Shown in pieces: positions 32,260 through 34,871 of a DNA stretch of 64,000 nt. The position numbers and the translations under genes were made by a program. Under the pieces are notes generated by a model that had not been told where the DNA came from, made no database searches, and saw only the letters and a list, made by a program, of their open reading frames with translations. Numbering within the stretch: position 1 is the first letter of the stretch; each line of letters starts with the position of its first letter. Location: assembly GCA_039930045.1 (NCBI GenBank), contig JBDSQB010000014.1:62001-126000 (forward strand). The letters run 5' to 3'. This DNA comes from Chthoniobacterales bacterium (lineage in GTDB: Bacteria > Verrucomicrobiota > Verrucomicrobiia > Chthoniobacterales > DASVRZ01).

Positions 32260-32817
32260 ATGCCAGCAGCCAACGACCTCCGCAAAGGACAAGCCATCCG
32301 TTACAACGGCAACGTCGCCATCGTCCTCGAAGTCATGCACCGCACCCCGGGCAACCTCCGCGCCTTCGTCCAGGCCATCATCCGCTACATCGGCACCGGC
32401 AAAAGCGCTGACGTCCGCTTCGGCTCCACCGACAAGATCGAACTCATCGACGTCAGCCGCCAGCAACTCGAGTATTCCTATAAAGACGGCAGCGACTTCG
32501 TCTTCATCGACCCCGCCACCTACGACACCGTCACTCTTTCCGGCGAACTCCTCGCCGACACCAAAGACTACCTCATCGAAAACCTCCAGGTCGAAGTCCT
32601 CTTCGTCGAAGACAAACCCGTCCAGGTCGAAATGCCCGCCAGCGTCAACATCCGCGTCGTCGAAAGCGCCGAAGGCGTCCGCGGCGACACCGCGAGCAAC
32701 GTCCAAAAACCCGCGACATTAGAGACCGGCAAAGTCGTCAACGTCCCCCTCTTCATCAAAGAAGGCGAACTCATCAAAATCGACACCCGCAACGGCCACT
32801 ACATGGGCCGGGCGTAA
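32260..32817 (+). CDS. efp: Elongation factor P
   Basis: 185 residues with the three EF-P beta-barrel domains: N-terminal KOW-like (about 1-65), OB1 (66-125, DFVFIDPATYDTVTLS) and OB2 (130-185, LETGKVVNVPLFIKEGELIK, ending GHYMGRA). It binds between P and E sites and relieves stalling at prolines. The tip loop that is modified in other bacteria reads RTPGNLRAF here: the Lys of PGKG (K34 in E. coli) is Asn32. Neither the EpmA-lysine nor the EarP-arginine modification can apply. It lies 33 bp behind kdsD and shares a leader motif with tsf. Confidence 0.96.
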   Translation: MPAANDLRKGQAIRYNGNVAIVLEVMHRTPGNLRAFVQAIIRYIGTGKSADVRFGSTDKIELIDVSRQQLEYSYKDGSDFVFIDPATYDTVTLSGELLADTKDYLIENLQVEVLFVEDKPVQVEMPASVNIRVVESAEGVRGDTASNVQKPATLETGKVVNVPLFIKEGELIKIDTRNGHYMGRA

Positions 32818-32861: not shown

Positions 32862-33623
32862 TTATGACAAGCCGGGCATCCGTACTAACAGAGTCGGATC
32901 GGTCTCGCAGCTAGCAACAATCTCATTATATCGGGCCAGGAGCTTTGATAGAGTCACCTTGCATTCGGCGGCTTTGAAGAAGCTACGCTCATAGACATTG
33001 GCAGTCAGAAATTGCCCTGCGTCCAGCACGTCCACTCTGTCAGCTAGATCAGAATTCTTCAAAAGAAACGCCGCCCCGCTGACCCCGTCTCCGATGCTGA
33101 TAATTAGGGGTTTCAACCCCGCCTTTAGATTCGCAGCACATTTCCTAACAAGAGCTTCACTTGGGTGAGTCGTGACATGAATGGCGACCTCCTCCACTTG
33201 GAAGTCACCTTTGCGCTCAGTCGAATGATCCGCCACAGAAGCGCCGTGGTGCTTGAGTTTCCCTGCTCCCATTACTAAATCCAACTTGGCACCCACGAGA
33301 TGCTGCAGCATTGCTCCGACATAGTTTGTACCTCCTGCATTTGCCTGAACTTCCTGGGCCTGCTGCAATAAGTCGTCAATGTTAGCCCGAAGAGATTTGC
33401 CACTGTCGAATTCAAAAATGACACGTGATCGCAGGCGAAGGTCTTGCCTCTCGTGAGCCGAGAATAAAGAACGATTGATTCCATGTTCCTTCAGAATGCC
33501 GTCAGCAATCTCTACAACTCTTTCAATGCCGCCTAGTGCATCAATCGATCCTTGCTCCTCGTTTGACAAAGAAAATCTCGTTCTAGTTAACTGCATCGTA
33601 TTTTTTATACCGAAGTTAACCAT
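32862..33623 (-). CDS. DUF4928-family restriction-associated protein
   Basis: 253 residues. It matches the DUF4928 family, which is encoded next to C5-cytosine methyltransferases. Shared phrases are YVGAMLQHLVGAKLDLVMG, GDFQVEEVAIHVTTHPSEAL, VRKCAANLKAGLKPLIISI and the end ARYNEIVASCETDPTLL. Members are believed to be restriction endonucleases or their partners, but no biochemical role is proven to my knowledge. The gene overlaps the upstream nuclease gene by 19 bp. Base composition is visibly more AT-rich than kdsD or efp next door, which suggests horizontal acquisition. An ATG at 33593 (MQLTRTRFSL) is an alternative start that would remove the overlap. Confidence 0.78.
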   Translation of the reverse strand: MVNFGIKNTMQLTRTRFSLSNEEQGSIDALGGIERVVEIADGILKEHGINRSLFSAHERQDLRLRSRVIFEFDSGKSLRANIDDLLQQAQEVQANAGGTNYVGAMLQHLVGAKLDLVMGAGKLKHHGASVADHSTERKGDFQVEEVAIHVTTHPSEALVRKCAANLKAGLKPLIISIGDGVSGAAFLLKNSDLADRVDVLDAGQFLTANVYERSFFKAAECKVTLSKLLARYNEIVASCETDPTLLVRMPGLS

Positions 33624-34372
33624 GACACTTGAATGATGGCTCTTTCCTTCTTAGCGAATTGCAGGCTAGACGAAATGGGATTCTGATAAATCTCGTGAAA
33701 TGGAGTTTCCCTAAAATTCTTCACGACGAATAAGAAGAAACGAGGGCCAAGAGCTGCAGCTAGATCGTGTTCTTTAGGCGTCATGTACAAGCTTCCATTT
33801 CGTTCCTTCAATCCTTTCACCTCGACAGCCAAGAAGTCTGCCGAATTGTCACGCAAACGGAAATCATATCCGCAGCCAAGCCGAGAAGTGTTCTCAACTC
33901 GGTAGCCATTGAATTCTGGGATCTTTGGTTGAATCGCTTCGAAATAATTCTCTGCCGCTAAACCTGTGATAAGTCGTTTCGCAAATTGAGAATCACCATC
34001 GGCTTCTTCCTCACTATACGACAAGTTGCTAAGAACATTTTCGTCGTATCCGAAGAACGACTGGACTAAGCCAGTGAAGGATTCGTAATCGAGATTTTCA
34101 TATTGCCTGAGCACTTTGAGGCAATAGTCACGTATAGGTCTTTTGTGCCATCCTGCACGGGGGTTCGGAAAAAAAGGATCGAATTCATCGCGATAATTTT
34201 TGATGGATGCCGGCCTGCCGCCAAGTCCATACCCAATCACATTAAATGCCTCTGTGAAGTTCTCGAAGCCGAGAGATTTCAGACCGGCAACGTCGTATTT
34301 TGCCAGATAGAGACCAGCGAGAATCGATTTCTCTCTCTTTGCGATGCTTTGTGGAATGATCAGCATAGTCAC
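33605..34372 (-). CDS. DUF3883-type PD-(D/E)XK nuclease, probable restriction endonuclease
   Basis: 255 residues from GTG 34372 (ATG 34366 is equally possible). The N-terminal half has GLGGRPASIKNYRDEFDPFF and GWHKRPIRDYCLKVL, common in restriction-linked nucleases. The C-terminal DUF3883 domain (about 155-240) has the nuclease core: Asp in RLGCGYDFRLR and the ExK in FLAVEVKGLKE, then LYMTPKEHDLAAALGPRFFL. It would cut DNA. The catalytic residues look intact although the neighbouring methyltransferase is broken. It follows the methyltransferase remnant by 15 bp in the same frame, separated by two stop codons. Confidence 0.72.
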   Translation of the reverse strand: MTMLIIPQSIAKREKSILAGLYLAKYDVAGLKSLGFENFTEAFNVIGYGLGGRPASIKNYRDEFDPFFPNPRAGWHKRPIRDYCLKVLRQYENLDYESFTGLVQSFFGYDENVLSNLSYSEEEADGDSQFAKRLITGLAAENYFEAIQPKIPEFNGYRVENTSRLGCGYDFRLRDNSADFLAVEVKGLKERNGSLYMTPKEHDLAAALGPRFFLFVVKNFRETPFHEIYQNPISSSLQFAKKERAIIQVSWLTSV

Positions 34373-34387
34373 AGAGACGTATTATTC

Positions 34388-34573
34388 CTACCGACCAAAC
34401 TCCCCTGCGTCGCCGAAATGGTCCCGATACATCTGCCATTTGTCCTCATCCATGTCATTGGCAAAAGCGATTTGCCACCCGCACCTCTCCAGACCCATTC
34501 TCACAAGACCGATTCCTGCGAAGAACTCAGCAAAATTTTTAGTCAGAAGCAGTTCCATGGGACGAGACGGCAC
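34388..34573 (-). pseudogene. dcm: Truncated C5-cytosine DNA methyltransferase (N-terminal fragment)
   Basis: 61 residues only (typical enzymes have 300-450). The fragment reads FAEFFAGIGLVRMGLERCGW, which is motif I (FxGxG, AdoMet binding) and the following helix, then AFANDMDEDKWQMYRDHFG, the motif II region. It ends abruptly at EFGR-stop. The catalytic PCQ, the ENV motif and the target-recognition domain are absent, and I cannot find them in the other frames before the next gene. An internal deletion joining the 5' end to the nuclease gene explains this. It is the first gene of the former restriction-modification operon. Confidence 0.82.
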
Positions 34574-34651: not shown

Positions 34652-34871
34652 TCCTACGGCCTTCGGTCTGCCTCCTACGGGTCTGGGCGGTGCTCCTACA
34701 GGGTTCGGCGGGCCTCCTACGGACTTGGTGGGGGCTCCTACGGAGTTGGGAGGCTCTCCTACGGTCCTGGGTGGGGCTCCTACAGCCTTGGGAACCTCTC
34801 CTACGGGTGTGGCCAGGCCTCCTACGGACATTGCCGGGGCTCCTACGGAGTTGGGAAGGGCTCCTACGGCC
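34652..34871. repeat. 21-bp tandem repeat array, 10 full units plus a partial unit
   Basis: The octamer TCCTACGG (A for the first G in two units) starts at 34652, 34673, 34694, 34715, 34736, 34757, 34778, 34799, 34820, 34841 and 34862, exactly 21 bp apart. The rest of the unit is variable but biased to nnTTGGGnGGnnC. No spacers are present, so it is not CRISPR. The period is a multiple of three, so both strands stay open in some frames (plus: LLRxWxG heptads; minus: VGAPPxx heptads), but third codon positions are as conserved as the others. Confidence 0.95.

Follow-up and report, generated by a model that had tools for sequence, protein, structure and literature searches.

A putatively mobile NOV_C nuclease gene in the remains of a C5 restriction-modification operon of a Chthoniobacterales bacterium

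How can a bacterium keep an apparently intact restriction-type nuclease gene when the methyltransferase that should accompany it is gone from the locus? The question is raised by a small island in the window, as we call the whole stretch of 64,000 nucleotides analysed here. An earlier, sequence-only reading had described this island as a restriction-modification (R-M) operon whose methylase was deleted and whose nuclease genes were intact. It consists of the following features:

34388 to 34573, minus strand: 5' stub of a C5-cytosine methyltransferase gene (61 codons, motif I and the next helix)
34366 to 34387, minus strand: short leader from the stub stop to the NOV start (stub stop 21 nt before the ATG)
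33605 to 34372, minus strand: NOV gene, encoding a DUF3883/NOV_C PD-(D/E)XK nuclease (253-255 aa, likely start ATG 34366)
32862 to 33623, minus strand: DUF4928 gene, short form (likely start ATG 33596)

Read 5' to 3' on the minus strand, the order is methylase stub, NOV, DUF4928 gene, and the stub and NOV share one frame with two stop codons in between. Coordinates, strand, three-gene layout and common frame had all been read correctly, as confirmed by the open reading frames and the matches to PF00145, PF13020 and PF16280. In a profile search the stub matches positions 2-43 of the 324 of PF00145 (E 1.6e-7), without the catalytic motifs IV, VI, VIII, IX and X and without the target recognition domain; the methylase is indeed gone from the locus. 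The GC content of the island is 47.6% versus 56.6% for the window, a value as low being found in 1 of 623 same-size windows, which bears out the impression of an AT-richer, acquired patch. The island is bordered on one side by efp (32260-32817, plus strand) and on the other by a 21-bp minisatellite (34672-34869, 9.4 copies, CTCCTACGG-type unit), which lies directly upstream of the methylase stub. NOV was found in none of the 56 order relatives searched, nearly all of which carry efp.

A type II R-M system combines a functional cognate DNA methyltransferase with a full-length restriction endonuclease (REase) of the resident family. Here the former is reduced to the 61-codon stub, and a whole-genome search (assembly 99.88% complete) returned this stub as the sole PF00145 match, so that the missing part is not supplied from elsewhere, as had been considered. 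The DUF4928 protein matches PF16280 well (E 1.3e-37), but over profile positions 122-305 of 306 only, and the alignment shows that it is devoid of the N-terminal block carried by the DUF4928 proteins of all intact R-M operons compared. The description of the nuclease genes as intact therefore stands for NOV, which can be aligned with its relatives over its full length and has every invariant residue (D168, E182-V-K184, E199), and fails for DUF4928.

NOV loci in other genomes

We scanned 84,980 genomes for NOV and took the best 80 of 114 relatives (43-69% identity), a biased sample whose genomes are mostly metagenome assemblies. These best 80 of 114 come from at least nine phyla; hosts are found in Verrucomicrobia, Lentisphaerae/Kiritimatiellae, Acidobacteria, Elusimicrobia, Planctomycetes, Desulfobacterota, Proteobacteria, Nitrospirae, Bacteroidetes, Omnitrophota and several Patescibacteria. 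A C5-methylase profile of 361 positions, built from 18 full-length methylases of order relatives, was run over the loci, and the junction positions given below derive from this profile, not from exact empty sites.

A methylase 5' fragment ends close to NOV in 41 of these 80 loci (best 80 of 114), 12 carry other R-M remnants only (Vsr, REase 3' pieces, a methylase 3' piece), and in 27 no R-M remnant was detected with the profiles used. Not one of the 80 loci, which together cover 836 kb, holds a full-length methylase, and no methylase match lies away from NOV in these 836 kb. The fragments stop at varied profile positions, from 35 to 243, and the short methylase ORF before NOV varies by locus from about 25 to 290 codons. 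In three loci (L044, L047, L048) the 3' part of the methylase, from profile position 287-288, comes directly after NOV. Otherwise NOV, often together with one small subfamily-specific gene, is followed by REases that are 5'-trimmed to different degrees and belong to the HinP1I and HaeII families (both named by Pfam), to DUF4928 and to an unnamed (SGRN) type. NOV itself is stop-free over its aligned length in 74 of the 80 relatives (best 80 of 114).

The same anatomy occurs in the isolates Mariniflexile (L051) and Rufibacter (L064), and is thus not a metagenome artefact; repeated in dozens of independent assemblies, isolates included, it rules out chance or an assembly gap at the window locus and disposes of the assembly collapse that had been considered. 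It had also been proposed beforehand to see whether the short gene is conserved as such in relatives. This turned out half true: a short ORF before NOV is kept, but its length differs each time, so that it is to be seen as a remnant, probably a translated leader, and not as a conserved gene. As judged by sequence comparison, the loci show NOV lying between the 5' remains of a methylase and the 3' remains of a REase, and staying intact while the methylase is always broken. The missing methylase is a rule for the NOV family, not an accident.

Flanking direct repeats or target duplications are not general around NOV loci, and NOV does not have the terminal repeats or target-site duplication of a transposon; the exception is L020, where NOV is flanked by a 113-bp direct repeat (97%; copies around 2648-2759 and 751-863 nt after NOV), the sole clear flanking duplication among the loci. 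In two Polaribacter genomes (L073, L074) NOV lies at the same place, downstream of an opposite-strand CTP-synthase-like gene, with no R-M remnant visible. A search of phage records and 2.9 million viral contigs found no relative, and we rejected an origin from phages or plasmids, the latter having yielded just two distant proteins (27-30% identity). These DUF3883 relatives on plasmids NZ_CP043645 (L198, 5996-6799) and NZ_CP008877 (L199, 5980-6768) sit with Z1-domain and AIPR proteins, and in L198 also with an ATPase, a PD-(D/E)XK protein, an annotated full-length C5-methylase and Vsr.

NOV as an incomer into methylase genes

Had the island been one R-M operon minus its methylase, as initially proposed, NOV should belong to intact operons; in those of the phylum a full DUF4928 gene comes immediately after the methylase, with NOV absent between them (L132-L137, L139, L141). 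Intact methylase-REase-Vsr operons without NOV are also present in the class of L072 (L217-L222). In a tree of the N-terminal methylase part, stubs are scattered among intact genes: the state switches 8 times, and well supported branches force at least 5 of these switches. A single origin of the stubs was obtained in 0% of bootstrap trees. In L026 and L028, stub and DUF4928 C-terminal part are 86% and 80% identical, respectively, to the intact operon L146/L141, with which their DUF4928 groups (100/98), apart from the window and the other NOV loci.

The strongest sequence evidence pointing to NOV as an incomer is the contrast in dS between NOV and the methylase parts around it. NOV genes 95-98% identical in DNA lie inside methylases that are just 74% identical. 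Between L072 and L076, NOV is 95% identical with a dS of 0.21, while the methylase parts (74% at the nucleotide level) show saturated dS and low dN, and are cut at different profile points, 164 and 135. Likewise, dS amounts to 0.24 for NOV versus 2.26 for the methylase part between L044 and L048, and to 0.075 for the NOV start versus 2.92 for the methylase part between G618 (L216) and L076, values above 1 being saturated and readable only as "much larger". Such near-identical NOV genes in diverged methylases imply that NOV entered different methylase genes repeatedly; the comparison shows, for the relatives, that NOV moves between genomes without its flanks and that its insertions into several methylase lineages and R-M families were independent of one another.

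One insertion can be traced more closely. The methylase of G618 extends as far as position 306, ending in ...LQGFPDTYKIAA, whereas intact genes have ...LQGFPDSFKIVCNYSQ there. The DxYKI and the leader of G618 recur in L076, and in both the YKI of motif X stands next to the same leader. This suggests insertion at the same motif X codon in this one traceable case, which lies at a contig end, with NOV frameshifted or cut after about 98 codons in G618. The alternative of an ancestral methylase-NOV-DUF4928 operon with later methylase loss is disfavoured by the NOV-free intact operons, the interleaving in the tree and the dS contrast.

The methylases around recent insertions display low dN/dS (e.g. 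81% identity in amino acids and 74% in nucleotides), and were therefore functional until the insertion. Two pairs of loci (L040/L042, L063/L069) have equal dS in NOV and methylase parts, yet their stub lengths differ, which indicates later erosion. For 32 of 41 stubs, the methylase frame stops between -40 and +20 nt relative to the start of NOV; the other two frames do so in 37 of 82 cases (Fisher p 4e-4; the null consists of the other frames at the same junctions, with related loci included unthinned, and the p-value is indicative). We infer that the stub serves NOV as a translated leader and is retained, the remainder being lost; this role would explain why a short methylase ORF persists despite its non-conserved length. 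In the window, where the stub stops 21 nt before the ATG, translational coupling of stub and NOV is likely.

The closest relative of the window NOV is 69% identical in amino acids (none closer; among the best 80 of 114), so that its own move is not datable, and its history is taken from the NOV family as a whole. Seen against this family, the window copy is one old, worn-down instance of NOV displacing a methylase.

The nuclease and its partner genes

NOV matches NOV_C/PF13020 with an E-value of 2.9e-11 and 43.7 bits (Pfam gathering cut-off 22.1). Its AlphaFold model (pLDDT 88, pTM 0.85) consists of a helical region (residues 1-110) and a nuclease fold (128-241). D168, E182 and K184 are invariant across a 75-sequence alignment that includes the window copy, and NOV thus displays the conserved D...E-x-K on a core fold that characterizes PD-(D/E)XK nucleases. 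From its sequence, the window copy looks active. In fold comparisons, residues 128-241 resemble Hjc (Z 8.7, 93 residues, rmsd 2.9). The matches to I-Ssp6803I and to Eco15I (8q5o), both at Z 7.1, do not rise above the background rows; matches below Z 8 are near background and support the PD-(D/E)XK fold only. The helical N-terminal half carries an invariant KNYRDEFDP motif; when the whole model was compared with known folds, nothing aligned to this half. We recognised no domain in NOV that would sense modified bases. Sequence searches found no solved structural relative of NOV, DUF4928 or the SGRN REase.

The DUF4928 protein of the window belongs to a short form in which an N-terminus of ~50 residues (LGGIxRVxxIADxILxxHGIxRSL) is joined to the catalytic C-terminal part, instead of the about 150 residues with an EEGGRTSRGS block found in full-length DUF4928. 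This form is known from the window and six relatives, all in NOV loci, to which its N-terminus is confined. A fresh truncation of the window gene was rejected in part, as the short N-terminus is common to these seven NOV loci. The C-terminal domain is a PD-(D/E)XK-type catalytic domain: the AlphaFold model of the short form (pLDDT 78) matches the catalytic part of EcoT38I (7edb) with Z 10.2 over residues 63-239. The short DUF4928 protein may be a working partner of NOV.

Other partner genes are diverse. Four unrelated families of small proteins (about 60-100 aa) are encoded after NOV in L072, L037, L043, L003 and their relatives, namely a GNYHPLCxxCA zinc-finger-like, a KNKIYS, an LDQKGT and an MLDLAI type. 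Each is tied to one NOV subfamily, and none matched Pfam, NCBIfam or PADLOC. In L192 (5653-7458, G260), a NOV-like gene (41% identity) is followed directly by a full-length DUF4928 gene, and a methylase is absent in 14 kb.

Possible roles of NOV and rival explanations

We favour, at about even odds with everything else, the view that the island is a ruined type II C5 R-M operon invaded by a mobile NOV gene, which is likeliest a modification-dependent nuclease. The starting state would be a type II C5 operon with a methylase followed by a DUF4928 REase, into whose methylase a mobile, solitary NOV_C gene would enter near motif IX/X. The useless methylase would then erode by deletion towards NOV, its 5' end remaining as a translated leader. 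NOV would cut DNA without a protecting methylase and spare ordinary, unmodified host DNA, most likely as a 5mC-reading nuclease similar to types IIM and IV; its substrate would include the methylation made by the displaced system, and cells would keep NOV only once the methylase of that system was destroyed. The partner gene, in the window the short DUF4928 protein, would probably work with NOV.

The conserved active site and the loss of every adjacent methylase imply that NOV needs no methylase; type IIM and IV enzymes work without a companion methylase, and none of the 80 loci (best 80 of 114) has an intact one as a neighbor. The dependence on 5mC is an inference. PF00145 matches are present in 44 of 50 NOV genomes, and about 31 of the 50 have a full-length match elsewhere in the genome. 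NOV is therefore not hostile to all 5mC, and we rejected a general incompatibility with any C5-methylase; a site-specific modification-dependent nuclease would fit this coexistence. HinP1I and HaeII both cut GCGC-core sites, and methylated GCGC-core sites are GlaI-type substrates, which makes the sites of these displaced systems a lead to the substrate of NOV. GCGC is not avoided in the window (observed/expected 0.96), and a footprint of an active GCGC cutter was rejected there. GTAC is strongly under-represented in the whole window (25 observed versus 80.7 expected, ratio 0.31, second-order Markov), possibly as the footprint of another restriction activity. Against a modification-dependent NOV we count its E-V-K, which differs from the Q-x-K reported for BisI, the 27 of 80 loci (best 80 of 114) without visible R-M remnant, the lack of a recognised sensor domain, the lack of a close relative of the window copy and the mostly metagenomic hosts.

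BisI is the nearest functional parallel in gene context. In Bacillus subtilis T30 the gene of this Gm5CNGC-specific enzyme adjoins that of an inactive C5-methylase. BisI also coexists with a second, active C5-methylase that has a different specificity, and most of its homologs are without companion methylase; the same study noted that no gene had yet been identified for GlaI (R5mCGY) (PMC4926085). Like NOV, BisI is a small PD-(D/E)XK-superfamily nuclease encoded beside a dead C5-methylase, with a C5-methylase of other specificity allowed elsewhere. Unlike NOV, it belongs to the PD-QXK (Mrr-like) subgroup, whereas NOV is a DUF3883 protein with an invariant E-V-K and an extra helical N-terminal half, and does not qualify as a member of the BisI family, defined by a PD-QXK active site and similarity to BisI. 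BisI is 5mC-dependent, a property that NOV is only predicted to share, and no recurrent insertion is reported for BisI (PMC4926085). McrBC is a modification-dependent nuclease that competes with certain methylases and is frequently transferred horizontally (Fukuda et al., 2008, PMC2614495), but it does not lie inside a methylase gene and represents a different protein family. DUF3883 is a recognised REase domain (PMC3710099, PMC10609329).

The main rival to a modification-dependent nuclease is a homing-like selfish gene, an explanation we consider possible but improbable: NOV would cut the methylase at motif IX/X and be copied into the break, the methylase being a casualty and loss of the REase a requirement. 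Slightly less credible still is the bolder version of a "methylase-hunting" NOV that recognises, cuts and enters motif IX/X, and so cures genomes of R-M systems across phyla. Free-standing homing endonuclease genes share with NOV minimal flanks, conserved host genes, flank-independent transfer and empty alleles, and those for enzymes such as I-Ssp6803I also the PD-(D/E)XK fold. NOV is a discrete unit from its start codon to its stop or past one small gene, and empty sites exist. Near-identical copies reside in diverged methylases (L072/L076, L044/L048, G618/L076), once traced to the same motif X codon (FPDxYKI|), and the junctions that are uneroded or residual fall close together, at model positions 287-306 (L216, L063, L044, L047, L048). 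The nuclease domain has a fold near Hjc (Z 8.7) and I-Ssp6803I (Z 7.1), but the latter score is not above background rows. Homing genes normally spare their host gene, whereas the methylase is truncated in all NOV cases and goes on eroding, its 3' half being found after NOV in three loci only; motif X is conserved in protein and less so in DNA, and cleavage of empty alleles by NOV is only hypothetical. Moreover, NOV has long been held under strong purifying selection and comes with partner genes particular to its subfamilies, unlike a gene that only homes.

R-M loci are known sites of rearrangement, and NOV could be defence-island cargo landing there by illegitimate recombination, with methylase loss as the neutral decay of a dead system. 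The absence of general target duplications and terminal repeats would agree with this, as would the precedent of hrgC, which in Helicobacter pylori replaces the middle of the PabI R-M unit, leaving 78 bp of M and 88 bp of R (PMC4615327). We nevertheless find it doubtful, given the low dN/dS of methylases that were functional until insertion and given the bias to the 5' side of C5-methylases (41 of 80, best 80 of 114) with zero intact methylases, which is unexpected from random landing. A conventional R-M operon with a deleted methylase and silent or inactive nucleases would account for the truncation and for a genome without other PF00145 match; it is very improbable, since NOV is missing from intact operons, appears conserved with intact catalytic residues across phyla, and is accompanied by methylase loss throughout the family (best 80 of 114). 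That the methylase of another gene protects against NOV is the least credible option: several NOV genomes do hold other C5-methylases, but the window genome has none by PF00145, a search that covered the C5 type.

Whichever nuclease activity NOV has, a single gene replacing the middle of an R-M pair and leaving the M 5' end and R 3' end is shared with hrgC. This pattern is seen in the window as stub and C-terminal DUF4928, and in relatives with HinP1I, HaeII, SGRN and DUF4928 remnants. Yet hrgC is not a nuclease of the NOV family and is local to one genus, while the replacement by NOV, one nuclease family, spans nine or more phyla and four or more REase families. Ershova et al. (2012) listed 74 solitary REs with methylase pseudogenes nearby, viewed as decayed or separated R-M systems (PMC3488263); these resemble NOV as nucleases near a corrupted methylase, but NOV is an incomer absent from intact operons. 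We found no published report, in the open-access literature, of a nuclease family recurrently displacing C5-methylases: gene replacement inside R-M pairs is known, and the scale, recurrence and methylase bias of the NOV case are new.

If the proposed reading is true, NOV would be a single gene, widespread in bacteria, that clears genomes of cytosine methylation systems, and this would explain why a nuclease without methylase is not lethal. A NOV that reads 5mC would stand for a large and unexplored family of enzymes dependent on methylation; a NOV that homes would be a homing gene that destroys its own target. The NOV loci are a ready source of cases of a dead methylase next to a nuclease, in which the displaced system would predict the substrate.
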